Both the position numbers and the translations under genes were made by a program. The notes under the pieces are model-generated. The model was not told where the DNA came from and searched no databases. It saw only the letters and a list, made by a program, of their open reading frames with translations. A stretch of 64,000 nt of DNA from Shewanella baltica (GTDB lineage Bacteria; Pseudomonadota; Gammaproteobacteria; Enterobacterales; Shewanellaceae), in assembly GCF_900456975.1 (NCBI RefSeq), contig NZ_UGYM01000002.1, positions 2,356,001 to 2,420,000 of the forward strand, in the 5' to 3' direction. Every line of letters starts with the position of its first letter. Position 1 is the stretch's first letter. Of this stretch, positions 37,945-64,000 are shown piece after piece.

Positions 37945-39207
37945 TTAGCCAGCATCTTGCGGCTTTAGGTGTTCCATTTCATTGAATATGTAGTCATTCA
38001 ATATCACACGTTTGAAAAGTAACTTTCGCGTTACTTCAGGGACATCTACTTCGTTACACACGGATTCAAACTCTTGGATAATCGTATTAATCTGCGATCT
38101 GATAATTTCTTCCGCTTTTTCGGCCTTAATATTGAAGCTTGGTGCTGCTTTCAGACAAAGTGATAACAGAGACAAATTTGAATTGTCGAAGAGCTTCATT
38201 CCATGATTTGCCACCCCACCGCTATGGTTTTGTGGACAAATATCATAAGCAGGTGATAGAGATATTTTATCCCCTTCGACAAAGAAAGCGTGATTACGAG
38301 CATGGTCATCCGAATTGCCGATCAGCACGTTAAATACCATCCGTGCAAATAGCTCTTGGCTATCAGAGGCAAATGCGATGCAATACTGCTTCATAACGTT
38401 TACTAGGTCTACATAAGAAGCCTCGCTAGCCCATGCTTCATCTAAGCCTAAAACTGTCAGTCCGGACACCATAGAGCGACGACACCAAATACCACCAATC
38501 AACTCTCTATCGAATCGTTTAACAAGAAGAACATCCTTGCCTAATGCTTTTTTTAATACAACTTCGGCCACATTGAGTCCGGCTAACTTAGCTAACTTCA
38601 TGGCTACGTATTCTGAATAGACAACCTCGTAAGTATCATTTTGGGATGAAAACTTAGCAATATACTTAACTTCGCCAGCAGTGATCATCGCTTTCGGACG
38701 AGCGCCTCCCAGCGATGTACAATGCATAAGTGCTTTATCCAAATCCAACGGGATTTTCTTACCTTGAGCGACGATTTCAGACACCAGGTATAACTCTTCA
38801 AGCGTGGCTGCATCAGTAGAACGATCAACATACTCAGTGGCCGATTCTTGAAAGTCGAGAGAACCGAACCGGTCTGAAGCGGAATGCATCAAATACGTCA
38901 TTTCGTTAAACTCAGCATCGTAACTTTTGCTCATCAGCCGAGAAATAATGGCCCTACGTCCCCAAGCATCAGGAGCTGCATCACGCAAGCATGAGAATAT
39001 AGACATACCTTGAACTGGCTGCATAGTACCAGCAGAAAGCGGTAATTCATGTGAGTAAATTGGCTCTGCATCTGGACGCTTCAAGTAAGACTGACCATAG
39101 GTAAAATGTTGGCCAGATTCATCAATAGTGAGTCTACCGGCTACCACAGGTTCTGACTGTCCTCTAAGCCATTTCCAAACGAAGCATTGGTTACTAGAAG
39201 TCGTCAT
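37945..39207 (-). CDS. hipA: HipA-family Ser/Thr kinase toxin
   Basis: 420 residues. HipA N-terminal domain, then a kinase core with the GGARPKAMI loop, AKFSSQNDTYEVVYSEYVAMKLA, the catalytic NVLIGNSDDHARNHAFF and the metal-binding SPAYDICPQ. HipA toxins phosphorylate aminoacyl-tRNA synthetases to arrest translation. Its start overlaps the end of the antitoxin gene by 14 bases. Confidence 0.9.
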   Translation of the reverse strand: MTTSSNQCFVWKWLRGQSEPVVAGRLTIDESGQHFTYGQSYLKRPDAEPIYSHELPLSAGTMQPVQGMSIFSCLRDAAPDAWGRRAIISRLMSKSYDAEFNEMTYLMHSASDRFGSLDFQESATEYVDRSTDAATLEELYLVSEIVAQGKKIPLDLDKALMHCTSLGGARPKAMITAGEVKYIAKFSSQNDTYEVVYSEYVAMKLAKLAGLNVAEVVLKKALGKDVLLVKRFDRELIGGIWCRRSMVSGLTVLGLDEAWASEASYVDLVNVMKQYCIAFASDSQELFARMVFNVLIGNSDDHARNHAFFVEGDKISLSPAYDICPQNHSGGVANHGMKLFDNSNLSLLSLCLKAAPSFNIKAEKAEEIIRSQINTIIQEFESVCNEVDVPEVTRKLLFKRVILNDYIFNEMEHLKPQDAG

Positions 39208-39529
39208 CCAAAATTACCTTTTTCCTTCTTACTCGATTAGGCAGCAGTGCTTCTATTTTCGCATTTTTTTTATGTTTAATAGCAAACCGATTTTCATCGG
39301 TTTCAAATAAGGAAACACCTAACACCCAAGCAGTTTCGAAGTAAAGTCCGATACTTACAGACGGATCACCCTTAAGAATCTTTATCATAGTGGGCTTAGA
39401 TGCCCCAACTCGTGAACACAGCTCTTCTACTGTGATTTTCTTTTCCTTACGCTGGATTGAAAGCAGAGTGGCGAAATGGGCTAGTGCAGCACTAGCAACA
39501 GTGCCAACTTGAATTTTATTCCTTCCCAT
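39194..39529 (-). CDS. hipB: HipB-like XRE antitoxin
   Basis: 111 residues from the ATG at 39529 (a GAAGAG ribosome binding site precedes it; a longer start at 39556 is possible). HTH_3-like segment KKITVEELCSRVGASKPTMIKILKG. The basic/acidic tail (KHKKNAKIEALLPNRVRRKK) is an unusual extension. It should neutralise HipA and bind the operators upstream. Confidence 0.85.
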   Translation of the reverse strand: MGRNKIQVGTVASAALAHFATLLSIQRKEKKITVEELCSRVGASKPTMIKILKGDPSVSIGLYFETAWVLGVSLFETDENRFAIKHKKNAKIEALLPNRVRRKKVILDDDF

Positions 39530-39561
39530 AGAAAATTTCTCTTCACCATAAACCAATTAGA

Positions 39562-42644: not shown

Positions 42645-42797
42645 CTAGACAACTTTGAGCCTCATTAGTGTACGTTTAACATAAATATAAAAACCTTCAC
42701 CTAAACAGTGCTCATAAGCATAAGAAGGGTGTCTATGCTCTTCATCCGAGTCTATTAACTTAAGCAGTATTGTATGAATTTCTTCAGAATTTAACAT
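42645..42797 (-). CDS. 50-residue ORF at the end of the Zorya operon
   Basis: Starts 22 bases after the zorE stop with an AAGG ribosome binding site 7 bases upstream. Sequence runs MLNSEEIHTILLKLIDSDEE to MRLKVV, with an acidic N-terminal helix and a basic aromatic C-terminal half. No known family. Last gene of the operon by position. Confidence 0.45.
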   Translation of the reverse strand: MLNSEEIHTILLKLIDSDEEHRHPSYAYEHCLGEGFYIYVKRTLMRLKVV

Positions 42798-42819
42798 ACG
42801 AAAACCTTATAAAACTTTA

Positions 42820-43956
42820 CTATCTAACCTTTGCCTGAAAGGTTTCAAAATTATTCAATGCATCAAACGCAGTAAACACATTCCAGCCATGACTTCTCAA
42901 TACTTTCGCATTATCCATGTTAATTAACACAGCAACCTTGCGCCTAGGCCAACAAAGATCAATAGCTACCATATTGCTATTATTATTAATACCAATACCT
43001 AACTCAGCACCAGGTAAACCCATTGATTGACACTTTTGCAGTAGACCATCTAATGCAGTGTCTGCACATTCGCGTAAATTATTAAAATCAAACACATCGA
43101 ACTTATGTTGTTCTCTTCGCAGTTGATTTATTTTAAGCACATCAGTATTGCTAACATAGATATGCCCATGATGAGGTTGTTTTTTATGACAATCTGCGCA
43201 AAGGACTCTTAAATTATCAGAACCATTATCTGCTTTATTGCCATTAATATGATGGGTATGCAACAACTTAGAGTCGTTTACTAAACAAACACCGCATTGC
43301 TCGCAAGTGTAATTTAAGTCACTTCTTAATTTTGAAGAGATCGCAGGCCAATCTGCAGTATAGCTGCTAGATACTTTGTTACTGTTCGTAGGTAAGCTTT
43401 TAAAGTATGAACTATACACTTCAAAAAATTGTTCAAAAGAAAAATGATTAAATACCATCTCTTTTACCGCATAGCTCTGAGTTGCATATCCCTTATAATT
43501 AAGGATTTTTAAGCAATTTTTGCAAACACCTAAAGCAGCCTCTCCCTTTATTTCTTCTTGATAGCTGTGCATTGAGCCAAAAACGGGAAATAAACCATCA
43601 ACTCGATTAATAACATCATATCTCTTGAATCTACCAGTATTCCTCATTAATTCTAATGTAGAACATTCAGCAACATGAATACGACGTCCTTGCTTTCCAT
43701 CTATCAGTACAGCTTCAATATCTTCACCTTGGTCAGGGATATAAAGCATGACTTGATGACCGTCATAATTCAAAATTCCATCAGAACCATCAATCTCATC
43801 AAGTTGGATATCCTTACCTAGAATAAGCCCCTTAATTAAATGACTACCTATGCTCTCAATTTCTGTTGACCGACTAGTAATAGTAAAGTTAGTAACAACT
43901 TTACCTAGCGGTGCCACAGCCCGATGTAAAGTACTAAAATCAACCGTCAGCTTCAT
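42820..43956 (-). CDS. zorE: ZorE, HNH endonuclease of type II Zorya
   Basis: 378 residues. The HNH core in the second half has CEQCGVCL, the THHINGNK His pair and NLRVLCADCHKKQ, with four zinc Cys. The N-terminal ~150 residues are a beta-rich domain, and a second Cys pair (CKNCLKIL) precedes the HNH. In type II Zorya, ZorE is the DNA effector activated by the ZorAB membrane motor. Its ATG overlaps the zorB stop (TAATG). Confidence 0.87.
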   Translation of the reverse strand: MKLTVDFSTLHRAVAPLGKVVTNFTITSRSTEIESIGSHLIKGLILGKDIQLDEIDGSDGILNYDGHQVMLYIPDQGEDIEAVLIDGKQGRRIHVAECSTLELMRNTGRFKRYDVINRVDGLFPVFGSMHSYQEEIKGEAALGVCKNCLKILNYKGYATQSYAVKEMVFNHFSFEQFFEVYSSYFKSLPTNSNKVSSSYTADWPAISSKLRSDLNYTCEQCGVCLVNDSKLLHTHHINGNKADNGSDNLRVLCADCHKKQPHHGHIYVSNTDVLKINQLRREQHKFDVFDFNNLRECADTALDGLLQKCQSMGLPGAELGIGINNNSNMVAIDLCWPRRKVAVLINMDNAKVLRSHGWNVFTAFDALNNFETFQAKVR

Positions 43957-44654
43957 TATTGTGCCTCTAATATCCGTTTAATCTGAATATCAGCATTTGT
44001 TATCGCTCTAAATGAAACTCGACGAGACATTGCTTCATCTTCCACATTATTTTTCATTATTAAGCGTGATGAAGAAAAACCAACAGCGGCGATATTCGCT
44101 TTGATCCACTCAGAGTCGTTTGGCATCAACGAATAACCATACTCTAAAACTGAGCGAGTACGACCTTGTGATAACTGCATATTATAAAAATATGCCTGTG
44201 CCTCAGTAGAGCCTCGAAGACCTAAACTTGATGTATGCCCCTCAATTCTGATTTCATCTAATGAATCCCTATAAGGTGTAAGCACCTTAATATATCTAGG
44301 GAAAAAATCATTCAAGATCTCCTTATAGGCATCGCTTAACCGTGTTTCATTATTAGCAAATAACACATCTGGTGATTGAAAGTTAAAGGCGAGCGTTTCC
44401 TTATCAATGGTCGCTCCCCACTTATCAAGATCATTTTTAAACTCATCTTCCAATGCTTGATAAATGGCCACTTGGTTTTCCTGATACGCGACAGCGACGT
44501 CTTTTATTTTGTCGTTTTCCTTCTGAGTAATCATCATGAACACAATCGCAATGAATAGAAAAACCATCATTAAACCGGCCATTAAGTCAGACACAGTTAA
44601 CCAATGTTCACCACTGTCCTGTGCACCATTGCTAGTACCAAATATCTTGTCCAT
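43956..44654 (-). CDS. zorB: ZorB, MotB-like stator subunit of Zorya
   Basis: 232 residues. A short cytoplasmic start, then a single transmembrane helix with the ion-coupling Asp (HWLTVSDLMAGLMMVFLFIAI, Asp at ~24), a coiled linker, and an OmpA-like peptidoglycan-binding domain (IRIEGHTSS, QLSQGRTRSVLEYGY). Together with ZorA it forms a proton-driven motor anchored in the wall. One-base overlaps on both sides. Confidence 0.92.
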   Translation of the reverse strand: MDKIFGTSNGAQDSGEHWLTVSDLMAGLMMVFLFIAIVFMMITQKENDKIKDVAVAYQENQVAIYQALEDEFKNDLDKWGATIDKETLAFNFQSPDVLFANNETRLSDAYKEILNDFFPRYIKVLTPYRDSLDEIRIEGHTSSLGLRGSTEAQAYFYNMQLSQGRTRSVLEYGYSLMPNDSEWIKANIAAVGFSSSRLIMKNNVEDEAMSRRVSFRAITNADIQIKRILEAQ

Positions 44655-46420
44655 TAGGCTACTCGCTGATTAACAACTTCATTCATGGCTTGAGTTAACT
44701 TAATGTAATCGTCAACAAACTTACCACTGACTTGAGCTAGCGCTTGTCCCATCTCGTTCATGACACGGTTTATTTCCTGCTGCATTGCCGTATCAATCAG
44801 TTTAAGTTGTGAATCAACAGCTTCACCTGTTAAGCCTACCTGATGCTTCACTTGTTCTTCCATGGCATCAAATGTGCGTTTGGCTTGGTTGATTTGCTGA
44901 GTAGCAGCGTCATCAATCACTTCATTAAGTCGTTGTTGTAGTTTTTCAGCTGATTTAACGACGGTGTCACGGACATTCTCAGTGTCAGTGACTAAGTTTT
45001 GGTTTGCTTCTTTCATTGTGGAAGTCATATCTTTAGCGTCTGCAACTAACTTTTCAATCATGTCACGCATGGTGCTATTCAAGTCACTTACCGCATCTTG
45101 CAAATGTTGCTTGATAATTTCAGTCTGGGATTGCAGATAATCAGAACTTGTCTGTAAGCTTTCATTTGTACGGGATGTATTATTGGTAAATTCAGTCGCT
45201 GCTGTATCGATATTTTTACTGATGATATCAGAGCTCTCAGTTAAGCGAGCACCGACACTGTTAATCCCTTTCTCTGTTTCGCTGGCAAACTTCTCTAATA
45301 GATCATTTGACGTTTTCACATGATTTTTAATGTAATCATCAGACTCGGTTAGCAAGGTCTTATAATGCTCACTTGCAGTATTAACCGCCGCAGAAATATC
45401 TTCGACGGTGCTTTGAACTTGCGCTCTAATTTCAGGCACAGCTTTAACCGCTTCATCACGCATTAATTTAAAGGCTTCCAAATGGCGTTCAAGCTCAGCT
45501 AATTGATGCTGATTAACTTCCATTACGCCTTTTAGTTCATGCATAGATTGCGGGATGATTTTACTTTGCTCACTAATATGCGCAACTGATGACTCTGTTG
45601 CTGAAATGGACTCGACACCTTGGGCATATTGCTGCTGCATTTGCTCAAGTTGTAACTTATAGTTTTCTTGCCATTCAACAAGCTTAATCACTGCCTCATT
45701 TAGCAGTTTAAAGTTATCACCAAACTGCTCGGTTAAATTATTATTGAAATCTGCAATGACCTGTTTGAGGGCTTCAATCACTTGCTCTGTGGCAGACTTA
45801 GACAAAGTATCAGCAAAGTCTTGCAGTTTAAGCCAAAGCTTCTCAGAAAATGCGTCAAACTTTTCTTGTTGCTTAATGGATTGTTCTTGCAGAATTTTTG
45901 CCGACAATTTGGCATTGTCATTAATGTCACCACGCAGAATTTTAAGTTGCCCAAATAATGTGGATTCTTCATTACCCACAAGCGCATCTTTTAAAGTACG
46001 GGTTTCAGTAACTTGTGCCTGCATCGCACCTAATATTGCCTCAGGCGTAGCATGCGAAATACTCTCTTCAAGCTGCTTAGGCCTCAAAAAAGAAAATGTC
46101 GCTAATGTTTTGAAAATCAACGAGAGCAAAATACCCGCTAAACTGGTAATAAAAGCCGTTTTTAACCCTTCAAGTAAAGGCGGAATACTGGCTTCAATAT
46201 CGAGCTGATTAAAATCTAACAAGCCCAATACAATGCCCAGAAATGTACCAAAAATACCCATAGTGGTTAATAATGTCGGTACATAATTCACAAACTCAAC
46301 TTGCTTTGCTTGTTTAGTAAAAAATAACCCTAATGCACACACTAAAGCCATCAACACTAAAATGGCACTACTCACCGATTGTGTATTAAGGCTTCGTAAT
46401 AAACTCTCTAATATTTCCAT
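44654..46420 (-). CDS. zorA: ZorA, MotA/ExbB-like subunit with long tail
   Basis: 588 residues. The N-terminal ~120 residues hold three membrane helices with the MotA/TolQ/ExbB pattern (YVPTLLTTMGIFGTFLGIV, GLKTAFITSLAGILLSLIF). About 450 residues of nearly unbroken coiled coil follow, rich in Gln/Glu/Ser/Thr. That long cytoplasmic tail is what marks ZorA and is needed for signalling to the effector. It starts 34 bases after the hsdS stop on the same strand. Confidence 0.92.
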   Translation of the reverse strand: MEILESLLRSLNTQSVSSAILVLMALVCALGLFFTKQAKQVEFVNYVPTLLTTMGIFGTFLGIVLGLLDFNQLDIEASIPPLLEGLKTAFITSLAGILLSLIFKTLATFSFLRPKQLEESISHATPEAILGAMQAQVTETRTLKDALVGNEESTLFGQLKILRGDINDNAKLSAKILQEQSIKQQEKFDAFSEKLWLKLQDFADTLSKSATEQVIEALKQVIADFNNNLTEQFGDNFKLLNEAVIKLVEWQENYKLQLEQMQQQYAQGVESISATESSVAHISEQSKIIPQSMHELKGVMEVNQHQLAELERHLEAFKLMRDEAVKAVPEIRAQVQSTVEDISAAVNTASEHYKTLLTESDDYIKNHVKTSNDLLEKFASETEKGINSVGARLTESSDIISKNIDTAATEFTNNTSRTNESLQTSSDYLQSQTEIIKQHLQDAVSDLNSTMRDMIEKLVADAKDMTSTMKEANQNLVTDTENVRDTVVKSAEKLQQRLNEVIDDAATQQINQAKRTFDAMEEQVKHQVGLTGEAVDSQLKLIDTAMQQEINRVMNEMGQALAQVSGKFVDDYIKLTQAMNEVVNQRVA

Positions 46421-48194
46421 ATATTTTATATCTTTCTGTAGTTAAGGTAAGTGGTTAAATTGCCTGTTCGACGATGGCGTCGGTGAGGTGCAGTTGGGTG
46501 ATTTGCGCATCCGCTAAACGGACTTTGAGTTGATCACAAAGTGCCATTAACTCTTCGACTTTAGCGACAATCCGGTGTTGCTCTTCGAGTGGAGGTAAAG
46601 GTATTACTATACTTCGGCTCTTAGTTACAGAAATGTTATCTTGACCAGCAGTTCCTATTAATTCAATACTTTGAAGAAACACTCCTGATATTAGATAAGT
46701 ATAAATATAACTATTAAGTTTTAACTCAAGGGGTCTAAAAAAGACTATAGCTTGATTACAATTCCATTCAGGGTATTCGTCAGGAATTATTGCGATTTTA
46801 CCTAATGGTGGGCCTACAATATTCATCACGACATCACCTGGATATAAAATTGAACGAGTCAACTTATTGGTGTGGTGATTTGACTCAACAAATTGTGACC
46901 GATGATAAAAGTCAATTTTTTGGTTTTTTATATTGTAAACTTTTAAATATGGTACTCCCGTTTCTTCATTAAACTTTTCTTTTGGTGGAGTAGAACCAGA
47001 AGTTATGGCAAAACAAATGTCATCAAGCCTTACGTAAGACCACCCGAGAGGAAGCTCAAATAGTTTTTCTTCGTCGGTGATGGCGGGCAGTGGCTTCTGC
47101 TTTTTGATTTTCCCCTCTTTGAACAGTTGGGCTTTTTCTTTGGCGATACGCGCAAGTAGTTTGGCTGCTGGTTCGTCATTAGGGTCTTGTTTGACTAGCT
47201 TACCCATCACGGCAAGTTGCAGGATGGTTTGCTTTAGGGTGTCGATGCTGGCGCTAGTAGTGAACAAGATGTCGAAGTGCTCGGCAACACGTTGCCAGTC
47301 CTTAACAACACTATTTGTAACAGGCAGCTCAAGGCTGTTTTCAGAAGCACGCTCAAGGCTGACATCAGCTTGACTTGCCGTATTAGCAGCCGTTTGTGGC
47401 AGTAGCAGCGCATTGAGCAGGGTTTCTACTAAGGTTTGGTGTGCCGCAATGCTCGCTTCGGTTTGCGTTTCAAGGGCATCACACAAGCTCATCAACTCAT
47501 CGACTTTAGCGACGATACGGCGTTGTTCTGCGATAGGAGCTACAGGTATCCATAACCTTGGAATATCCCCAAGGTTTAGTTTATTAGTATGGCTTCCTCC
47601 TGCTTTAATCTCATCATACTGCCTAAGTAATAGTGGACTATGGAATACCTTGTGAAGATACCCGGATAATAACGATTCATTAAAAAACTTTAATAAACCA
47701 ACGCTTACGAAAAGACTGAAAGGCTCAGACGTATCAACTATTGTTGCTCTACCTAATGTACCAATACGGCAAATCAGAATATCACCAAGTTCAGGATTAC
47801 AACGTTGATTAATCTCCTCGTGCTGCTCCTGTGAAATATATTTACAGTCTGCAAAAGAAACTGTTTTTCCATCTATATCTTTGACGGATATAAAAGGTAC
47901 TCCACTTTCAATGTATTTAGGGGTGTGATGGACACCATCAGTAACTTGCTTAGATAATTCGTTTACTCGACTCCACTCCCACCCTTGCGGCAACTCAAAC
48001 GGCTTTTCTTCTTCACTAATCTCAGGCAACGGCTTTTGTTTTTTAAGTTTACCTTCTTTCACCAACTGCGCTTTTTCAGCGGCTATGCACTCAAGCAAGA
48101 CTGAGGCGGGTTCATCATTCACATCTTGCGGCACTAACTTACCACGTACGGCGAGTTCTAAAATCAGCTCGCGCAGTTTTTTGATGCCATAAAG

Positions 48195-49252
48195 GGCTTT
48201 GTTTCCTAAATCGAGTCAGCGAACAAAACTCTCATCATTGTTCAAATATCAAGCTACATAGTGGGTTTCAGGCATACCTAGCCCAGTAAGCTTGTTCAAA
48301 GCCCTAATCATCGCGTAAGTTTCTCCCACCTGAGCGTTATAATTCCGCATGCTCAACGTGCCTCCTAGCAGTTGTTTTACCCTGTACATGGCGGTTTCTG
48401 AGATTGAACGGCGATGATAACCATACCGTTTTTTCCACTGCTTATTTGAGCCATGAAGCTGTTGCCAACTGACGGCTAAGTTTCGTGGATGCCCTTGTTC
48501 CCATAGCGCAGCACCTTCCCTAGGTGGAATGAGCACTAAAGCGCGTTTTCGACGAACGGCTTCGTGACAGGCTTTCGTGTCGTAAGCACCATCACCCGAG
48601 ATATTACGGATTTTTCGATGGGTTTGCTTAAGTAAATTGGGCATCACTTCAGCGTCTGTGACACCTGATAAACTGAGTTCTGCGGCAATAATTTCATGGC
48701 TATGTGTATCTACGGCAATATGCAGTTTACGCCACACTCGGCGCTTTCCATCTGTACCATGTTTCTTCACTTTCCACTCACCTTCGCCATAGACCTTCAA
48801 GCCTGTTGAGTCGATAGCTAAGTGCTTAATGGCGCCGCGAGTCTTGGTTTTAAAAGCAATATTGACCGTTTTCGCGCGTTTACTGATGCAGGTGTAATGC
48901 GGGCAAGATAATGGGATGTCACCCAGTTTAAACACTGAATTGATGAAGCCTTGTAAGGCTCGCAGTGGCATAGAGAAAATACGCTTGACCATCAACGCAG
49001 TGGTAATGGCCAAGTCGCTAAACACTCGAGGGCGACCTTTCTTGGGCTGCTCGACTTTGGCTTTCCACTTAGCAATTGCATCCTCATCAATCCAGAAGGT
49101 AAGTGAACCGCGGTTGATTAAGGCTTGGTTGTATTGCTTCCAGTTGGTTGTTTTATAGTGAGGTTTTGACACGGTTGATGGGTAAGTTGATAGGCGATGC
49201 CGATCAGATCTGCGGCTACGGTTTTAGTTCAACCTATTTAGGAAACAAGGCC
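48195..49252 (-). mobile_element. IS5-family (IS903 group) insertion sequence
   Basis: 1058 bp with terminal repeats GGCTTTGTTTCCTAAAT and GGCCTTGTTTCCTAAAT, close to IS903 ends (GGCTTTGTTGAATAAAT). Perfect 9-bp target duplication GCCATAAAG at 48186-48194 and 49253-49261. Confidence 0.95.
48249..49172 (-). CDS. tnp: IS903-type transposase
   Basis: 307 residues, the IS903 length. DDE residues in LAIDSTGLKVYG, SGDGAYDTKACH and RSISETAMYRVKQLLGG. Intact. Confidence 0.95.
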   Translation of the reverse strand: MSKPHYKTTNWKQYNQALINRGSLTFWIDEDAIAKWKAKVEQPKKGRPRVFSDLAITTALMVKRIFSMPLRALQGFINSVFKLGDIPLSCPHYTCISKRAKTVNIAFKTKTRGAIKHLAIDSTGLKVYGEGEWKVKKHGTDGKRRVWRKLHIAVDTHSHEIIAAELSLSGVTDAEVMPNLLKQTHRKIRNISGDGAYDTKACHEAVRRKRALVLIPPREGAALWEQGHPRNLAVSWQQLHGSNKQWKKRYGYHRRSISETAMYRVKQLLGGTLSMRNYNAQVGETYAMIRALNKLTGLGMPETHYVA

Positions 49253-49410
49253 GCCATAAAGCGAAAACTTATTGGAACTGCCACGGCCTGCTGAAGACTT
49301 TTGCTCTATCGCAGTCGTCCAAATATCAAGGTGAGTGGTAATTAAATTTTCAGCCGTTGGCGTGGCTTTGATATTGCGAGCGTGAGTGTCTGTTATGGAT
49401 AAATCAGCCA

Positions 49411-50913
49411 TTACTTGCCCTCACCGTCTGATGCTGCCGAAGGTGACGATAATGAGGCAGACAAGATGCCTTTGAGTTGGTCACGCAAGGCTTGAATATC
49501 CGCTTGTTGTTTAGCGTAATCGGCTAACAAGGTTTGCGGATCATGGCTTACCACTTCGCCCACATGGGGGTTTTTAATATCGAGGTTGTAGTTACGGGCA
49601 ATAATGTCGTCGATGGAGACTTTCCATGCTTGCTCGTTTTCGACCCGCGCTGCAAAACCATCGGCTTCATCGCCCCACCACGCAAGTTCTGTTTCAAACT
49701 CTTCAAACTTCATCGGTTTGGTTTTGTTGTAGTTTTTTACCCCTGCTGGATAAGGGTGCTCGTAAAACCAGATGTCTTTGGTGGGCTGGCCTTTAGTGAA
49801 AAACAGGATATTGGTTTTAATGCCCGTGTAAGGATTAAACACACCATTAGGTAAACGCACTATGGTGTGCAGATTACATTCTTCGAGCAGCATTTTTTTG
49901 ATTTTGGTTTTAACGCCTTCACCAAATAAGGTGCCATCGGGCAATACCACGGCGGCGCGGCCGCCCTTGCCATTTGTTGCAGGGGCTAGCACCTCAATAA
50001 TTAACTGTAAAAATAAGTCGGCGGTTTCGCGGGTTTGAAACTCACTGGGGAAGTTTTTTTCAATGCCGTCTTCTTCGGTGCCACCAAAGGGTGGATTGGT
50101 GATGATAACGTCAACCTGCTCGTCCCAACTTGAAAGCGGTTTGTTTAAGGTGTTGCCGTGTTTAATTTGCACCGGCACTTCAATGCCGTGCAACATCATG
50201 TTGGTGGTACACAATAAATGCGGTAATTGCTTTTTTTCCACACCAAATATTTGCTGTTGCAGGGTTTGATGGTCGTCTGCTGTTTTAACGTAGTTGGCTT
50301 TAACGTGGTCAAAAGCGCAAGCTAAAAAGCCGCCGGTACCACAGGCCGGATCCATAATCGACTCACCCAGCTTGGGGTCGGTTACCGCCACAATAAACTT
50401 AGTAATGGCACGCGGGGTATAAAACTCGCCCGCGTTACCAGCACTTTGTAAGTCTTTTAATATTTGCTCGTACAAGTCACCAAACAAATGCCGCTCGTTT
50501 GAGTCGGTAAAGTCGATTTCATTGAGTTTATTGATGACTTGGCGCAAAAGCGTGCCGTTTTTCATGTAGTTAAAAGCATCTGAAAACGCCGCTTTTACCA
50601 CATAACCGCGAGGATTTTTATCTATTGGTGCGGTGAGATTTTTAAGATCAGGGAATAGCTCATCATTGACAAATTCAAGTAGCTCGTTACCTGTGATGCC
50701 TTCGTTATCGGCCGCCCAATTGCGCCATAAAAAATCACTCGGGATAGGTGTACTGTAATCATCGAGTTCTAGCTCTAACTGCTCTTCTTGGGCATCGAAT
50801 ACTTTTAAGAACAGTAACCAAGACATTTGGCCTAGTCGCTGGGCATCGCCATCGACGCCGGCATCTTTACGCATAATGTCTTGAATAGATTTAACGGCTG
50901 AACTGATAGACAT
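49411..50913 (-). CDS. hsdM: HsdM, type I adenine methyltransferase
   Basis: 500 residues. HsdM N-terminal helical domain, then the N6-adenine methyltransferase with GEFYTPRAI, motif I DPACGTGGFLACAF and catalytic NPPFGG (motif IV). It methylates the recognition site with HsdS and, with HsdR, forms the restriction complex. Stop overlaps the hsdS start. Confidence 0.95.
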   Translation of the reverse strand: MSISSAVKSIQDIMRKDAGVDGDAQRLGQMSWLLFLKVFDAQEEQLELELDDYSTPIPSDFLWRNWAADNEGITGNELLEFVNDELFPDLKNLTAPIDKNPRGYVVKAAFSDAFNYMKNGTLLRQVINKLNEIDFTDSNERHLFGDLYEQILKDLQSAGNAGEFYTPRAITKFIVAVTDPKLGESIMDPACGTGGFLACAFDHVKANYVKTADDHQTLQQQIFGVEKKQLPHLLCTTNMMLHGIEVPVQIKHGNTLNKPLSSWDEQVDVIITNPPFGGTEEDGIEKNFPSEFQTRETADLFLQLIIEVLAPATNGKGGRAAVVLPDGTLFGEGVKTKIKKMLLEECNLHTIVRLPNGVFNPYTGIKTNILFFTKGQPTKDIWFYEHPYPAGVKNYNKTKPMKFEEFETELAWWGDEADGFAARVENEQAWKVSIDDIIARNYNLDIKNPHVGEVVSHDPQTLLADYAKQQADIQALRDQLKGILSASLSSPSAASDGEGK

Positions 50914-51000
50914 AAATTTCTCTTTTCGTTTTTAATGCTTAACGCTTAATTTTTAGTTGTAAGTAAAACGCACCAAAGTACGCACTGCTTATTAGACTGA

Positions 51001-53484
51001 TTATTGTGCTATTTGGTAGATTTCGGCTTCTAACTCACTAATGGCTTGTTCGTACTGGGGTTTGCCACCAAAGCCTTTTTTGATGATGTCACTTAAACTG
51101 CCTATGTCATTAAATGGCTGAACTTTAAGCACTTGCAGATTTTCAATTTCTTGCACGCCCACATCGGCGTATTTTACCAATAAATTCTCGAGTACGGCTT
51201 GGGCCGTGTCGGAATATTTAGTGAAATAATTACGTTTTTTAACGTTATTAGCCCGTTCAGCGCGGGTTAACGGCGGTTGGTCGTAGACGACATGGCAAAT
51301 CATATCGAAGGGATCCATGTCTTTGCCCACTTCTTCCTCAAGTGCAGACCAAATAATCCCCTCTTGCGCCAGCTCATCGATTACCGCTTGTTTACGGTCG
51401 GCGTCATTCCAACGCCTGACAAACTCATCAAGCGAACTGAACTGTTTCGCCATGGTTTTACGGGTGTAATCCTTAAAGGATTCAGTGACCAGTTTGCCGT
51501 CGCTGTCGTAATACTGCACCCGCTCAGCAACTTTGCTGACTGTCACGCCAGATACGCGGTACTTGTTAACCTTACGAGTTTCGCCTTCGTCCCATTCACT
51601 TTCATCAAAGCTACCATCGCCTTGAGGATCATTTTTGGTGTTGTCTTGGTCTTGGCCTTCGCCTTGTTGCTCATCTTGAATGTCCCCCTGAACATCTTCC
51701 TCGTTTGGTTCATCATCAGCGGCATCAATATCCACGTCTTCATCTTCAATGTCTTCTGGCGTCACTTTAATGATTTTTTCAGGGGTACCATCAAAACGTT
51801 CGTCGGCAAATAACTCGGTTGCCTTTTTGAAATCCAGAATGGTAAACCATAACTTATTGTATTTATCATCTATTCGAGTGCCGCGACCGATGATCTGCTT
51901 AAATTTAGTCATGGATTGAATATTTTGATCGAGCACCACTAACTTACAGGTTTTCGCATCGACACCTGTGGTCATGAGTTCTGAGGTGGTCGCAATAACC
52001 GGATAGGCCTTTTTAGGGTTGATGAAGTTATCCAGCTGGGCTTTGCCGAGTTCATCATCACCGGTGATCTTCATAACGTATTTGTCATTTTTCGCCATTT
52101 GCTCAGGGTTAAGATTGGCAAGTGCGCGTCGCATCCGTTCGGCGTGATCAATATCGTTGCAAAAAACAATGGTTTTACCCATAGGATCGGTGCGTTTAAG
52201 GTAGTTAGTTATGGTTTCGGCCACCAACTGAGTACGCTCATCAATCACCATAGTGCGGTCAAAGTCTTTTTGGTTATAGATCCTGTCTTCGATAACTTCG
52301 CCATTGTTGTCGATTTGGCCCTTTGTGGGTCGCCAGCCTTGTAAGTCCACATCAATATCCACCCGAACCACTTTATAAGGCGCTAAGAAACCATCGTCGA
52401 TACCTTCTTTGAGCGAATAGGTGTAAAGCGGATCGCCAAAATAATCAGAGTTAGAGACCTCATCGGTTTCTTTTGGGGTTGCGGTTAAGCCCACTTGCGC
52501 GGCACTGCTAAAATACTCGAGAATTTCGCGCCAAGCGCTGTCGTCACTGGCACTGCCACGATGACATTCATCAATAATGATCAGGTCAAAAAAGTCTGGA
52601 GCGACTTGTTTAAACGCTTTTTGACTCTCATCAGGGCCAGTCAGTGCTTGATAAAGTGCTAGATGGATTTCATAAGCAGGATCGACTGTTCGGCCAGTAA
52701 TTTTGGTCATCGATGTGCCAAAGGGCTGAAAATCGTTTATGCGAGTTTGATCGACCAAAATATTACGGTCAGCGAGGAATAAAATGCGTTTCTTGGCACG
52801 GGATTTCCATAACCGCCAGATGATTTGAAATGCTGTGTAGGTTTTACCTGTGCCCGTTGCCATCACCAGCAATACCCGATCTTTACCCGATGAGATAGCT
52901 TCAACGGTTTTATTGATGGCTTGCAACTGATAATAACGCGGGTGCTTACCCGTGCCGTCATCGTAATAGGCTTCGTTAATGATAGGTAACTGCGCTGCGG
53001 TATAACCTTTCCAAATACAATATTTAGCCCAGAGTTCTTCAGGACTAGGAAAATCTTCTAAGCGGATTTCGGATTCAAGGTTGTGAGCCTCTGGCGTGCC
53101 CGGGCTGTTTGTGATGGCATGGGTCTTGTCGTGGAATATAAAACCATCGCCGTTAGAGGCAAACACAAAGGGAACATCGAGCAAATGAGCATAATCGAGT
53201 GCTTGTTGTATGCCCTTACCGACTTCATGCTTATTCGCTTTAGCCTCAATCACCGCCAGCGGCATACTCGGTTTATGGTAGAGCACAATGTCGGCTGACT
53301 TAACCGTTGTGCGCATGCCCATTTGACCCCGAACAATCACCTTACCATCACGCAACTTCACCTCCTGGCGAATTTGCGTCATATCATCCCAACCCGCATT
53401 TTTTACCGCAGGCATGATGAACTTTGTGATGATGTCTGTTTCGGTTAACTTTGCTTTATTGATGCTCGCGTTATGGTTGACCAT
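51001..53484 (-). CDS. hsdR: HsdR, type I restriction subunit (EcoEI/EcoAI-like)
   Basis: 827 residues. N-terminal PD-(D/E)xK nuclease ([19 protein letters not shown], ~70-90), superfamily 2 translocase ([32 protein letters not shown]), then an acidic Asp/Glu/Gln-rich linker (~570-620) and the EcoEI_R_C-type C-terminal domain. Length and C-terminus fit the type IB branch. ATP-driven translocation and cutting of unmodified DNA. First gene of the operon. Confidence 0.93.
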
Positions 53485-56821: not shown

Positions 56822-58063
56822 TCAAAATGTGAAAGCTTTTTCAGCCATTTCTCTCATGCAGTATTTTTGCGTTGGTAGCCACTTACCATAGTGTTTCTCG
56901 ATCATCTTTATGCTGGTATGTCCCATTTGCCGAGCAACCCAAGATAAAGGTAGTCCTGCCGAAATTAAGTGCGATGCAAAGGTATGCCGCGTTTGACTTG
57001 GCCCTCTAAAACGAATCCCAGCTTTCTTCAAGTGGTAACAATAAAATCTTTGTCTCAAGTGGGCATCTGAAGTGTATGCTTTTCTAGTATTACTATTACA
57101 AAATACAAAGTGAACACGCTGCCTCTCTATAGACTTATTGTCCTCTCGAAGCACATTAATCGTTTCTAGTGCAGAATAATTATAATTATCACGCTGATCA
57201 ATGAGTATTGTTTTTGCCTGCGGGAGTAACTCTATATGCCTGTTACTAGATAGGTTTTTTGGCTTTTTGTAAATGCCTTCAACGACTGCACGCGAGATAT
57301 GAATTGTATCGTTCTCTAAGTCAACATCTTCCCATGCCAACGCCATCAACTCACTGACCCTTAGACCGAGAAAGCAATTACAAATGATCATATTGACTTC
57401 AGATTGTCTATCTGTGGCCACTGATGCTATTTGGGTTATCTCTTCGGCTAAGAATGGATCTGGTACTTGCGTTAACACTTTGAGATTTGTAACGTTAGTC
57501 GATTTTAACCTATCCAGCGGATTAACCGATATTGCCTCATCCAACAGCGCAAAGGTAAATATCTGATTTAAAATGCTTAAAATCTCCTTAATCGTTTTGT
57601 TACTCAAATACGCTAGTTTAGTATTCATCCATGATTCAATATCTAACGGCTTAATTTTATCAACTGCATCATTTGCAAAGCGAGGCACGATATGCGTCAG
57701 AATCTTATTCTCGTAGTTTTTAATCGTACATGGCGCTAACGTTATCCTTTTCGCGTTCAAAAAAGCGTCAATGTAATGATTGAAGAATTTAGCTTCAAGC
57801 TGTTCCTCTCGAATGAAATGATAATTATCAAGTTGCTTCAAAAATTGCTCATGATTATATTTTGCTAGATTTTTCAAATCACTAACGATTACTGATGCGC
57901 GTAACAATCCTTGTTCAGTGCACTCAATATCATCTAATGCCATACGGTATAGTTTTGAGTTAAGTTTAAACATCATTCGGACGCAGGTACTTGAGCGAAT
58001 ATCTAGATGTTTAATATTTTTTTTCTTACAAAACAATTTCGCTTGCTCAACTGTCATTAACAT
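56822..58063 (-). CDS. int: Tyrosine recombinase / integrase
   Basis: 413 residues. N-terminal arm-binding and core-binding (SAM-like) domains, then the catalytic domain with Arg in LGLRVSELMALAWEDV, the H-x-x-R box QTRHTFASHLI, GH in QMGHTSIKMIEKHYGKW with catalytic Tyr. Divergent from a second integrase. Confidence 0.92.
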   Translation of the reverse strand: MLMTVEQAKLFCKKKNIKHLDIRSSTCVRMMFKLNSKLYRMALDDIECTEQGLLRASVIVSDLKNLAKYNHEQFLKQLDNYHFIREEQLEAKFFNHYIDAFLNAKRITLAPCTIKNYENKILTHIVPRFANDAVDKIKPLDIESWMNTKLAYLSNKTIKEILSILNQIFTFALLDEAISVNPLDRLKSTNVTNLKVLTQVPDPFLAEEITQIASVATDRQSEVNMIICNCFLGLRVSELMALAWEDVDLENDTIHISRAVVEGIYKKPKNLSSNRHIELLPQAKTILIDQRDNYNYSALETINVLREDNKSIERQRVHFVFCNSNTRKAYTSDAHLRQRFYCYHLKKAGIRFRGPSQTRHTFASHLISAGLPLSWVARQMGHTSIKMIEKHYGKWLPTQKYCMREMAEKAFTF

Positions 58064-58606: not shown

Positions 58607-59881
58607 GTGAAACAATTTCCTTTAAATACAGTGCAACTAACACCTGCTGAAGCAAAAGGGGTAATAAATCAGCATCAAATTAAAAATATTGAAGTACATG
58701 GTAATTCGTTAAGAGCTGTGTTTAAACGACAAAACAGGACTTATAAACAAACACTGTATGTGGGCCTTACATCTCTAGAAATTGTTTCCGTGATATCTAA
58801 GTTAGATGGATGGCGGAAGTTATCGCCAGCCGAGTTGGAACTCGCGTTCGCTAATTATAAAAGAAATAATACCAAAGTCCCTTTAACTATTAATGACTTA
58901 ATAGAAAACTATACAAAAAACCACTATCCCACCTTGGCTCCCGCTACAGTCAAAAGCTATAAAGGTCACTTTAAGCGTATCTCATTGGCTATTGGTGAAA
59001 AAAATATACTTGAAATTAACTCAAATGATGTCTTTAAGTTTCGTAACGAACAATTATCTACGTTGGCATGGAAAACAGTGAATGAGACGATCAGGCTGCT
59101 GGATACACTTTTACAAAATGCCGTCGACAACGGTGATTTAGTAAAGTCGCCGATCAATTTACGAAGAATGAAAATTAAGCAGGGTCATGGCGATAGCACA
59201 ATCACTGAAAAATTATTCACGATCGAGGATCTTAACAAAATTCAGAATAGTATTTCTATTAACCCAATGATTGCACTTATTATATTGTTCAATTGTTGCG
59301 CAGGGCTCAGGTTTTCAGAGCTAATGGGTTTATCTTGGGAGGATATTGATTTAGAAAAAAGAATTATTACCATCCGCAGAGCGAGAGTAGATGGAAAATA
59401 TAAAACCTTAAAAGTAAGAGGCGTCGAATCTCGTCAAGTCGATATTTTAGATCCTGCGCTTTGGATGCTGAATGAAATGAAGAAAAGGTTCTATGAACTA
59501 TCACCTCAACAAACAATCAAGACTCTTGGTGCGGATTATAAACAAATCAAACAAGAAAATGTCCGATTCGTCTTGCTATGCATGGATACACAAACAAGCT
59601 ATCAAAACGAACAGAAATTTAGAAAGGATTTTTATCATTTTCTGAAGGTTATCAACGTCAGCAAGACAAAACCAAACCATTGCCGACACACTTTTACATC
59701 CTTAGCATGTAATGAAGGTGCTAATCAAACGTACATTTCAAAACAACTCGGCCATGCAAGCGTCTTAACAGCAGAGAAACACTATCTTAAATGGAATAAA
59801 TCTCCAAACAAAGTAGAACGAGATAGCGCATCCCAAAAGATAAATTCTATTTTTGAACGGTTCACAACCGCTCAAGGGTAA
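58607..59881 (+). CDS. int: Tyrosine recombinase / integrase of the island
   Basis: 424 residues. Core-binding domain (TINDLIENYTKNHYPTLAPATVKSYKG), catalytic Arg in CAGLRFSELMGLSWEDI, CRHTF box, GHAS and Tyr in AEKHYLKW. Adjacent to the right attachment-like site, so probably the enzyme that integrated the island. Confidence 0.92.
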   Translation: MKQFPLNTVQLTPAEAKGVINQHQIKNIEVHGNSLRAVFKRQNRTYKQTLYVGLTSLEIVSVISKLDGWRKLSPAELELAFANYKRNNTKVPLTINDLIENYTKNHYPTLAPATVKSYKGHFKRISLAIGEKNILEINSNDVFKFRNEQLSTLAWKTVNETIRLLDTLLQNAVDNGDLVKSPINLRRMKIKQGHGDSTITEKLFTIEDLNKIQNSISINPMIALIILFNCCAGLRFSELMGLSWEDIDLEKRIITIRRARVDGKYKTLKVRGVESRQVDILDPALWMLNEMKKRFYELSPQQTIKTLGADYKQIKQENVRFVLLCMDTQTSYQNEQKFRKDFYHFLKVINVSKTKPNHCRHTFTSLACNEGANQTYISKQLGHASVLTAEKHYLKWNKSPNKVERDSASQKINSIFERFTTAQG

Positions 59882-62519: not shown

Positions 62520-64000
62520 TTAAACTTGCTCTAAAAGCTTCATTACAACTTTACCAATTTGCATTGCCAAATATGGTGGCACAGCATTACCTACCTGCAC
62601 ATATTGCTGTGTTCTATTCCCTTCAAATATGTAATTATCGGGAAATGTCTGTAATCTTGCAGCTTCTCGCACAGTTAAACTTCTACACTGCTGTGGATCA
62701 TAGTGAATAAAGTAGTGGCCATCTTTAGAAATGTGACTAGTTACCGTTGTCGCACACTTATTTGCAGCTTGAGTCCTGAAGCGATCTGCATGCGCCCCCG
62801 AATCCCAGTTTTCATGATCAGGGGCTAACTCTAACGGATAATCTCTTGCTTTAGGCGATGTACCACCGCTTAACTTGGTAAACGCAGCACTGAAAGCATA
62901 CCGAACTAAATCTGAAGTCATGTGGCCGCGAGTCGCATGATTTAACACACAACCAGGATGGCCATCCAAATACCAGTCCTCTAAATGTGCGGGTATATTC
63001 TGCTCAAGTTCTGACAATAGAGAACTTTGACGATCTAACCCTAACATTGGTTCAAGATTTAATTTATCAACAGCCCCACTATCGAATCGCGTTTTCAAAA
63101 TGCATTTTAACTTTTTAGCATTGGTTTGTACTTGTTTCTCCCAATCTTGTTGAATATCTTTCTGCTTAGATAGACCACTTCTTAATGGAGGTAAATCAGA
63201 CAGCACTTGTTCAACAGTTACAACTTGTTCCATTGGATAAATGGTATCTGGTACATGGGTAATATCTTGTCGCACTCCCAACAAAATTACGCGATGCCGT
63301 GCTTGAGGAACACCATAATTTTCAGAGCGAATAAGAAAGTCAGCAGAATCTGGGTATTGAGGATCGTTTGGGTCGTTTGCCTCTACAACAAGTGAAAAAA
63401 CTCTATATTTAGAAACACCACTCACTCCAGTTACTAGGCCCGGATTTCTCAAGTCTTCCAATATTTGGGGAAACATAACGTTGCCATCGATTTTGGCAGA
63501 TAGAATACCTCGTACATTTTCCATAACAAATACATCAGGTTGTGCTATAGATAATACTTTAAGGTATTCCTTGTATAAGAAGTTTCTGTGGTCATCTTCA
63601 GCTTTATAGTCTTTAATTCCCGCATTACGAGAACGTCCAGCTAAAGAATATGCTTGGCACGGCGGTCCACCAATGACAACTTTAGGGCCTTGATGAGTTG
63701 TAATTAATTCACGGATGCGAGTGTGGATTAGATCATTGTCTTCACCCAGAGCTCTAGGTTCTTCTAACGTTTCGTAAATGGCCTCTTGAGCTTGTTGAGG
63801 GTATAAATCGAAAATTTCTTCCCGAGTTAGCTTTCCCCGGACATAATTAAAGTAGTCTTCTAACCCACCATCTAATATTTTAATTTTTCTGTAGAAGGCT
63901 CGCGTTGTTAATGTTTTATGTGCTGAAGGCTCTTTCTCGACTGATACACCGATCTTGAACGGTTTGATACCATTGCCATCTGTTACAGAAGATACACCCT
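62520..64000 (-). CDS. DNA cytosine-5 methyltransferase (partial, runs off the edge)
   Basis: At least 492 residues; open to the window end. Motif IV GPPCQAYSLAGRSRNAG with catalytic Cys, motif VI ENVRGIL, motif VIII QARHRVILLG, then a target-recognition region and motif X GNAVPPYLAMQIG. The upstream part (FKIGVSVEKEPSAHKTLTTR) contains the SAM-side motif II region. Methylates cytosine C5. The partner nuclease, if any, is outside the window. Confidence 0.92.
   Translation of the reverse strand, partial: GVSSVTDGNGIKPFKIGVSVEKEPSAHKTLTTRAFYRKIKILDGGLEDYFNYVRGKLTREEIFDLYPQQAQEAIYETLEEPRALGEDNDLIHTRIRELITTHQGPKVVIGGPPCQAYSLAGRSRNAGIKDYKAEDDHRNFLYKEYLKVLSIAQPDVFVMENVRGILSAKIDGNVMFPQILEDLRNPGLVTGVSGVSKYRVFSLVVEANDPNDPQYPDSADFLIRSENYGVPQARHRVILLGVRQDITHVPDTIYPMEQVVTVEQVLSDLPPLRSGLSKQKDIQQDWEKQVQTNAKKLKCILKTRFDSGAVDKLNLEPMLGLDRQSSLLSELEQNIPAHLEDWYLDGHPGCVLNHATRGHMTSDLVRYAFSAAFTKLSGGTSPKARDYPLELAPDHENWDSGAHADRFRTQAANKCATTVTSHISKDGHYFIHYDPQQCRSLTVREAARLQTFPDNYIFEGNRTQQYVQVGNAVPPYLAMQIGKVVMKLLEQV

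Follow-up and report, generated by a model that had tools for sequence, protein, structure and literature searches.

Type I restriction-modification (RM) operons can carry the genes of other defence systems. The Vibrio pathogenicity island 2 (VPI-2) of V. cholerae has the order hsdM-hsdS-tgvAB-hsdR, with TgvAB inside the type I RM operon (PMC11411939, PMC12409362), enteropathogenic Escherichia coli (EPEC) has hsdM-hsdS-darTG2-hsdR (PMC12255303), and EcoprrI carries PrrC (PMC12707154, PMC12409349). The subject of this report is a locus of Shewanella baltica in which zorA, zorB and zorE, a type II Zorya defence system, stand directly behind the hsdS gene of a type I RM operon. It lies in a stretch of 64,000 nucleotides (the window; contig NZ_UGYM01000002.1, positions 2,356,001 to 2,420,000), and the pairing looks like one filling of a general slot behind hsdS rather than a special partnership.

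Like the window, the VPI-2 and EPEC operons have defence cargo directly behind hsdS. In both, however, the cargo is enclosed by hsdR, whereas the window operon runs hsdR-hsdM-hsdS and its cargo is terminal. Standing after the last hsd gene, Zorya is not an embedded defence in the sense of guilt-by-embedding, and the available parts of the accounts of type I RM with embedded cargo do not name Zorya II as cargo. VPI-2 also has a Zorya system (VC1761-64) next to its type I RM system (VC1765-69; PMC11411939, PMC12409362). That Zorya is of type I, lies beyond hsdR by locus number and is described as a separate module, whereas the window has type II. Islands of Druantia III and Zorya II likewise place Zorya II beside other DNA-targeting systems, and type I and type IV RM are enriched around Druantia III (PMC13192584); an operon with RM is not described in the part of that account available. 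The PDC families were found by embedding (PMC12988326), so part of the hsdM-hsdS-cargo-hsdR pattern is probably already known. In what was available of the literature on Zorya with type I RM, on embedding and on hsdS cargo, no account was found of hsdRMS-zorABE or of a slot behind hsdS that is independent of gene order. A preprint by Payne and others reportedly deals with embedded defences.

As read from the open reading frames (ORFs) and sequence of the window, six genes, hsdR-hsdM-hsdS-zorA-zorB-zorE, follow one another in that order on the minus strand, with an insertion sequence (IS) inside hsdS. The features are as follows, with protein lengths in amino acids (aa).

51001..53484, minus strand: hsdR, type IB restriction subunit, 827 aa (PADLOC PDLC03049, E 0; Pfam EcoEI_R_C, HSDR_N, ResIII)
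49411..50913, minus strand: hsdM, N6-adenine methyltransferase subunit, 500 aa (PADLOC PDLC03025, 4e-238; Pfam N6_Mtase, 9.9e-90, and HsdM_N)
49411 down to 46455, minus strand: hsdS as a whole, with the IS inside
49253..49411, minus strand: hsdS 5' piece of about 53 codons, severed by the IS; its ATG overlaps the hsdM stop codon (sequence)
48195..49252, minus strand: ISSod12 (IS5 family), inside hsdS (ends and 9-bp target duplication; 98% to annotated ISSod12; Pfam DDE_Tnp_1)
48249-49172, minus strand: ISSod12 transposase ORF, reading along with the operon
46455..48194, minus strand: hsdS 3' piece with both target-recognition domains (PADLOC Specificity_I, 6e-177; Methylase_S in two stretches)
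46455-48134, minus strand: ORF of the hsdS 3' piece, with a GTG start
46421..46454, minus strand: hsdS-zorA junction, 34 bp (sequence; promoter and terminator scan)
44654..46420, minus strand: zorA, MotA-like motor subunit with a long tail, 588 aa (PADLOC ZorA2, 1.3e-262; PDB 8vvi chain F, E 1.7e-37)
43956..44654, minus strand: zorB, MotB-like, with an OmpA-type peptidoglycan-binding domain, 232 aa (PADLOC ZorB2, 2e-95; Pfam OmpA; PDB 8vvi chain A, E 1.4e-46)
42820..43956, minus strand: zorE, HNH nickase effector, 378 aa (PADLOC ZorE2, 3.6e-144; conserved ZorE residues)
42645..42797, minus strand: ORF of 50 codons, probably left over from an AAA-protein gene (resembles the start of L035:13621-15372, 61% over 49 aa)

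An earlier note on this DNA had placed the six genes on one strand with short gaps or overlaps and zorA 34 bases after hsdS, and the coordinates and the PADLOC and Pfam matches agree with it: hsdR and hsdM are 87 bp apart, hsdM and hsdS overlap, and zorA/zorB and zorB/zorE each share one base. The extent given there, from 42645, holds for the six genes, but its start also takes in the 50-codon ORF, which looks like a remnant because it resembles the N-terminus of a complete 583-aa AAA_5 protein that follows zorE in S. atlantica (L035).

Judged by its sequence, the RM system is of type IB, the EcoAI/EcoEI kind, with which it shares the hsdR-hsdM-hsdS order and the EcoEI_R_C domain; relatives are annotated as EcoAI/FtnUII, one of them, on a plasmid, as EcoAI/FtnUII family subunit R. 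It differs from such systems in an hsdS split by ISSod12 and in a complete second defence system that extends the operon. The Zorya half has the type II arrangement, with zorA, zorB and zorE adjacent and zorE in place of zorC/zorD, and agrees with that type in its three genes, their order, the ZorE residues and the kinship of ZorAB to the solved complex 8vvi. What sets it apart is its location, at the end of a type I RM operon and 34 bp from hsdS. ZorAB matches 8vvi best among solved complexes, ahead of 8vvn and 8qyy, and on these scores 8vvi would be the type II complex of PMC11890865. Nine of the 11 ZorE positions named in PMC13192584 (HNH/DUF8245 residues) are identical when numbered from the ZorE of L062, whose residues fit all 11 names; the exceptions, E99 and H235, are variable among 15 aligned ZorE proteins. 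The Zorya system is complete and looks intact. No Druantia model was among the listed PADLOC matches of ten ORFs around the locus, a result that holds for these ten only.

Is the place behind hsdS peculiar to Zorya? Or is it one that other genes take as well? There are 31 HsdM matches in one taxonomic order; the window and 25 relatives were examined, and five weaker matches (two in G224, one each in G132, G007 and G126) were left out. Across the 25 relatives hsdR-hsdM-hsdS is constant and the downstream genes differ. In 23 of the 25 (24/26 with the window), no more than 200 bp separate the end of hsdS from the start of a co-directional ORF that encodes at least 100 aa. Adding the four Zorya-bearing loci described below brings the count to 28/30; the median gap of the 28 is 10 bp, and 25 of them have a gap of 60 bp or less. 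On the 5' side of hsdR the same ORF caller gave 7/27 (Fisher p 1e-7 against 28/30), and for the other ORFs of these loci the figure was 148/328 (p 1e-7 against 28/30, 1e-6 against 24/26). The hsdS of L097 is followed at once by what looks, by eye, like a terminator hairpin, with neither cargo nor a co-directional gene close by; this is likely the empty state of the slot. In L100 the next co-directional gene is 555 bp from hsdS. One of the 28, L092, was counted for an ORF that is IS-like by its size pattern and lies inside a broken hsdS; a co-directional ORF follows the displaced hsdS end at about 134 bp.

The first or second gene behind hsdS matches a known or candidate defence model in 19 of the 25 relatives, 11 of them scanned directly and eight assigned through clustering. 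The cargo in each is given below.

L080: DRT UG5-nitrilase (direct scan)
L085, L091: Drt1a (direct scan)
L081, L082: PtuA/Septu (direct scan)
L083: MkoC-like (Mokosh-like) helicase (direct scan)
L084: DarG, as second gene (direct scan)
L088: GmrSD pair (direct scan)
L089: PDC-M04AB (direct scan)
L093 (second gene), L095: PDC-S11 (direct scan)
L090, L094 (AbiD), L098, L099, L100, L102, L103 (SIR2), L104: defence by clustering with a scanned protein
L086, L087: SEC-C protein and an unknown protein, without a defence match
L101: cargo without a defence match
L096: HipA-like second gene (Pfam only)

When the co-directional proteins encoded first behind hsdS in the 30 loci are grouped by similarity, 16 mutually dissimilar groups result (15 in the order's sample with the window), leaving out the IS-like ORF of L092 and the opposite-strand ORFs of L097 and L100. 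Zorya is the occupant in one of the 26 loci of the order, the window itself. The two marks of a type I RM system with cargo 3' of hsdS, a co-directional defence gene and different occupants on related chassis, were both found. Quite probably, in our view, zorABE is cargo: a module seated in a reusable slot immediately 3' of hsdS, with the RM genes as its chassis, and read as the last genes of the operon. The RM genes would remain constant, while the cargo behind hsdS would be exchanged or stacked between strains.

The combination with Zorya itself recurs. Screening GTDB genomes for relatives of ZorA turned up 40 loci. Four of them have, upstream and in the same orientation, an RM system of the family seen in the window.

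L040, Colwellia metagenome-assembled genome (MAG): hsdS, 51 bp, zorABE
L035, S. atlantica: AbiD between hsdS and zorA
L037, Pseudoalteromonas sp. P1-25: an unknown protein and a McrB/McrC-like pair between hsdS and zorA
L043, Colwellia MAG: SIR2 and PtuA/PtuB-like proteins between hsdS and zorA, and a DUF1016 nuclease between hsdM and hsdS

The hsdS-zorA order that the earlier note had suggested looking for in other genomes is thus found directly in L040 and with intervening genes in the other three, where these genes number one to three and are mostly of defence type. In S. atlantica the AbiD gene and about 260 bp separate hsdS from zorA; the resemblance between its DNA and that of the window resumes 2 bp before zorA and runs to window position ~42668. 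In the DNA examined for the remaining 36 loci, several of whose contigs are short, close hsd genes of the window's RM family were not seen; six of the 36 have weak HsdM similarity (24-27%) on one side or the other.

Among 394 genomes of the order, 20 carry Zorya II (ZorB2, E<=1e-40) and 30 the HsdM family (E<=1e-150). Both are present in three (G000, G138, G236), with ~1.5 expected, and the window's genome is the only one where they are adjacent. The earlier note had suggested that a shared transcript would couple the two systems; a special partnership between them was rejected: co-occurrence is about as expected, and many unrelated defence genes are found at this position behind hsdS. In a functional guard pair, Zorya II would stand behind type I RM to back it up or to sense the failure of restriction, caused for example by DNA mimics with which phages counter restriction. 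The classic precedent for such a role is PrrC with EcoprrI (PMC12707154, PMC12409349). PrrC-like genes are in the same slot of other type I operons (3/20 scanned, see below), and activation of Zorya II by Ocr is mentioned in passing in PMC12255303; in PMC13192584, however, the DNA mimic reported to raise Zorya II defence is DinI, and Ocr is reported to raise that of Druantia III. In the window hsdS is broken while zorABE is intact. To our knowledge most slot occupants have no link to RM failure, and given so many unrelated systems in the slot and a co-occurrence so near expectation, we regard a guard pair as improbable.

Ordinary crowding in a defence island would account for the locus in another way: Zorya would lie beside RM by chance, with no fixed slot and no shared expression. 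This would suit the islands of Druantia III with Zorya II and the type I and IV RM around Druantia III already described (PMC13192584), as well as the integrase genes 3-5 kb from the RM operon. It would also suit the Methylase_S genes (E<=1e-5) found within 20 kb of zorB in 6/20 Zorya II genomes (3/20 within 10 kb), a count that has no control fraction and from which broken contigs may hide some; in those six genomes they are all on the zorB strand, at varied distances. The position is non-random, however, with 28/30 loci on the 3' side against 7/27 on the 5' side, and it is the same in a second genus (L040), so that crowding is an unlikely explanation of the order seen here.

Loci with nearly the same RM genes differ in cargo. 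HsdM is at least 90% identical in 26 pairs of loci, and any cargo group is shared in six of them (29 loci, without L097; pairs with L092 are unreliable). The window and L080 have HsdM proteins that are 94% identical, with Zorya as cargo in the one and DRT in the other. Genes for HsdS consist of conserved blocks that alternate with exchangeable target-recognition domains. In 12 pairs compared, the conserved DNA blocks lie in hsdR, hsdM, the centre of hsdS and usually its end, and the target-recognition domains and cargo vary. For the pairs window-L080 and L086-L100, the last stretch of similarity takes in the terminal 108-116 bp of hsdS and goes no further than the stop codon. A corresponding border on the far side of the cargo was not found in the 12 pairs. 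Proximal and distal cargo changes both occur, since L082 and L037 have the McrB/C-like pair in common in second place and differ in their first cargo, and L098 and L099 have their first cargo in common and diverge after it. Between L086 and L087 the likeness holds throughout the 9.6 kb of downstream DNA compared. From these blocks we infer that exchange may proceed via the conserved end of hsdS. A bolder proposal, which we hold as a possibility and not as the likelier case, is that whole defence systems dock immediately after hsdS whatever the order of the operon, and that the conserved last ~110 bp of hsdS make the cargo a third exchangeable module (TRD1-TRD2-cargo, where TRD is a target-recognition domain). 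The recombination that changes specificity would then also load and stack defences, including motors such as Zorya.

Type I systems of other families bear on how general the slot is. From a longer list for the same genomes, 32 hsdS loci of other families were picked by hand, mostly with both domains and enough flanking DNA. In 26 of the 32 the next ORF is co-directional and within 200 bp behind hsdS. The first genes of 20 of these 26 were scanned; 16 match PADLOC defence models other than type I RM (a few weakly) and four are hsdR.

L123, L125, L126: PrrC
L122, L124: PDC-S20
L131: PtuA/PDC-M01A
L137: PDC-S11
L144, the second type I system of the window's genome: PDC-S23
L153: SAVED-HNH effector (CBASS-type)
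L129: PDC-S62
L134: Ppl-like protein
L136: PDC-S63
L139: PDC-S08
L149: PDC-S05
L135: PD-T4-1, a weaker match
L143: two REase_II models, a weaker match, also hit by the AAA_5 proteins of L035 and L037
L141, L145, L147, L148: hsdR directly behind hsdS

In EcoprrI, too, prrC presumably lies behind hsdS. Of nine large ORFs further downstream, eight are HsdR; they were chosen for having smaller genes before them, so no frequency is implied. Since the large ORF beyond the smaller genes is HsdR, the cargo of those operons lies between hsdS and hsdR. PDC-S11 and PtuA are found behind hsdS in both operon orders.

On plasmids, ZorA relatives (E<=1e-20) were found in 11 of 72,556, none more than 42% identical, and the one region inspected, on a V. 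coralliilyticus plasmid (12 kb each side), has Zorya without RM. The whole operon as DNA matched 31 plasmid records; of 10 listed, eight matched over the IS part only. Two RM plasmids inspected have a DUF262 pair and an AAA/nuclease pair, respectively, 2 bp behind hsdS.

Shared expression is the other part of the proposal. The earlier note had taken a strong promoter and terminator between hsdS and zorA as evidence that would speak against it. No consensus promoter-like or terminator-like site was found in the 34-bp junction by a weak scan, which gave fewer promoter-like sites than shuffles, and such a gap would leave little room for a promoter plus a terminator. A shared transcript would be the simplest reading of the 34-bp and 51-bp gaps, and zorABE is probably expressed from the RM operon.

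Several observations weigh against a general slot whose cargo is read with the operon. The loci of the slot counts are not statistically independent. In six of the 25 relatives the cargo has no defence match, is an IS-like ORF or is missing, and in 4/20 scanned operons of other families hsdR directly follows hsdS, without cargo. Zorya II is usually found without this RM system, the family being upstream in 4/40 loci, with several contigs too short to tell. A possible hsdS 3' remnant before zorA in L043 is suggestive only, and was rejected as proof, as 20/200 shuffles score as high and a profile search did not show it. Pseudoalteromonas TB64 and P1-25 are 90% identical over the 320 bp before zorA, yet only P1-25 shows this RM family, so that zorA may have a promoter of its own there.

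What would the cargo contribute? Zorya senses the envelope (PMC12904381) and ZorE is recruited by ZorAB (PMC11890865); in the published model, ZorAB would sense disturbance of the envelope by an infecting phage and recruit the ZorE nickase, and the DNA would be cut. Zorya II would add an early, envelope-triggered nickase response to sequence-based restriction, and the two would protect independently of each other though expressed from one transcript. We favour separate layers over a circuit because the slot occupants are so diverse. Co-transcription, exchange by recombination and additive defence are in this sense what we infer for the locus. Should the slot prove general, unknown defence systems could be sought in the gene 3' of hsdS in type I operons of any kind, hsdR-hsdM-hsdS operons among them, which searches for enclosed genes would miss. 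A general slot would also account for the joint spread and expression of RM with other systems, no particular mechanistic link between them being needed. As the Zorya locus shows, a multi-gene membrane motor can fill the slot, and not just single genes or toxin-antitoxin pairs.

In this strain the chassis itself is damaged. ISSod12 splits hsdS after ~53 codons, leaving both target-recognition domains in the 3' piece, and is flanked on both sides by a perfect 9-bp target duplication. The genome has four copies, and the three others are 100% identical to the hsdS copy, so with the perfect duplication the insertion is recent. An intact HsdS, as expected of a type IB system, is absent, and a working HsdS from the GTG-started 3' piece is unlikely because its N-terminus is lost. 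Since the IS splits hsdS, the RM system is predicted to be inactive, with restriction and modification probably both off; the locus is type IB by descent and probably not a working one. A V. cholerae strain with IS256 inside hsdS is described as lacking the methylation (PMC11411939). The modification-dependent barrier of which the earlier note spoke is probably absent here. ISSod12 reads toward zorA and might influence zorABE expression; either the IS or read-through from hsdR may now be needed to express these genes.

The broken gene, together with the truncated ORF after zorE, could suggest a degenerate locus whose RM half is being lost, with the Zorya genes surviving by accident beside a dead operon. 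The insertion is recent, however, the reading frames of hsdR, hsdM and the zor genes are open and strongly resemble those of relatives, and the ZorE residues are kept. We consider such decay very unlikely and keep to a cargo module on an RM chassis.

Some further observations concern hsdS and the operon family. The hsdS of L092 also looks broken, by ORF pairs of IS3-like size. In the second type I RM system of the window's genome (L144, G000:C2 47894-48973) the hsdS frame is open, and PDC-S23 and another gene lie between hsdS and hsdR. Proteins of ~135 aa are encoded on the opposite strand between hsdR and hsdM in L035 (4759-5163, minus strand) and L089 (4845-5252, minus strand), and at the same place in L094 and L101. 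They are 46-83% identical, with two N-terminal CxxC pairs each, and are possibly a regulator or a further partner; the two that were scanned had no Pfam match. A DUF1016/YhcG-type nuclease lies between hsdM and hsdS in L043 (1957-3033) and L081 (6981-8093). The two are 71% alike and mark a second cargo position in the operon family.

Elsewhere in the window, two divergent phage-type integrase genes, 56822-58063 (minus strand) and 58607-59881 (plus strand), lie 3-5 kb from hsdR and suggest a mobile island. A HipA-like kinase gene, 37945-39207 (minus strand), overlaps a small ORF, 39194-39556 (minus strand), as a possible HipBA pair. Near the window end is a C5-cytosine methyltransferase gene, 62520-63524 (minus strand), a possible further RM component.

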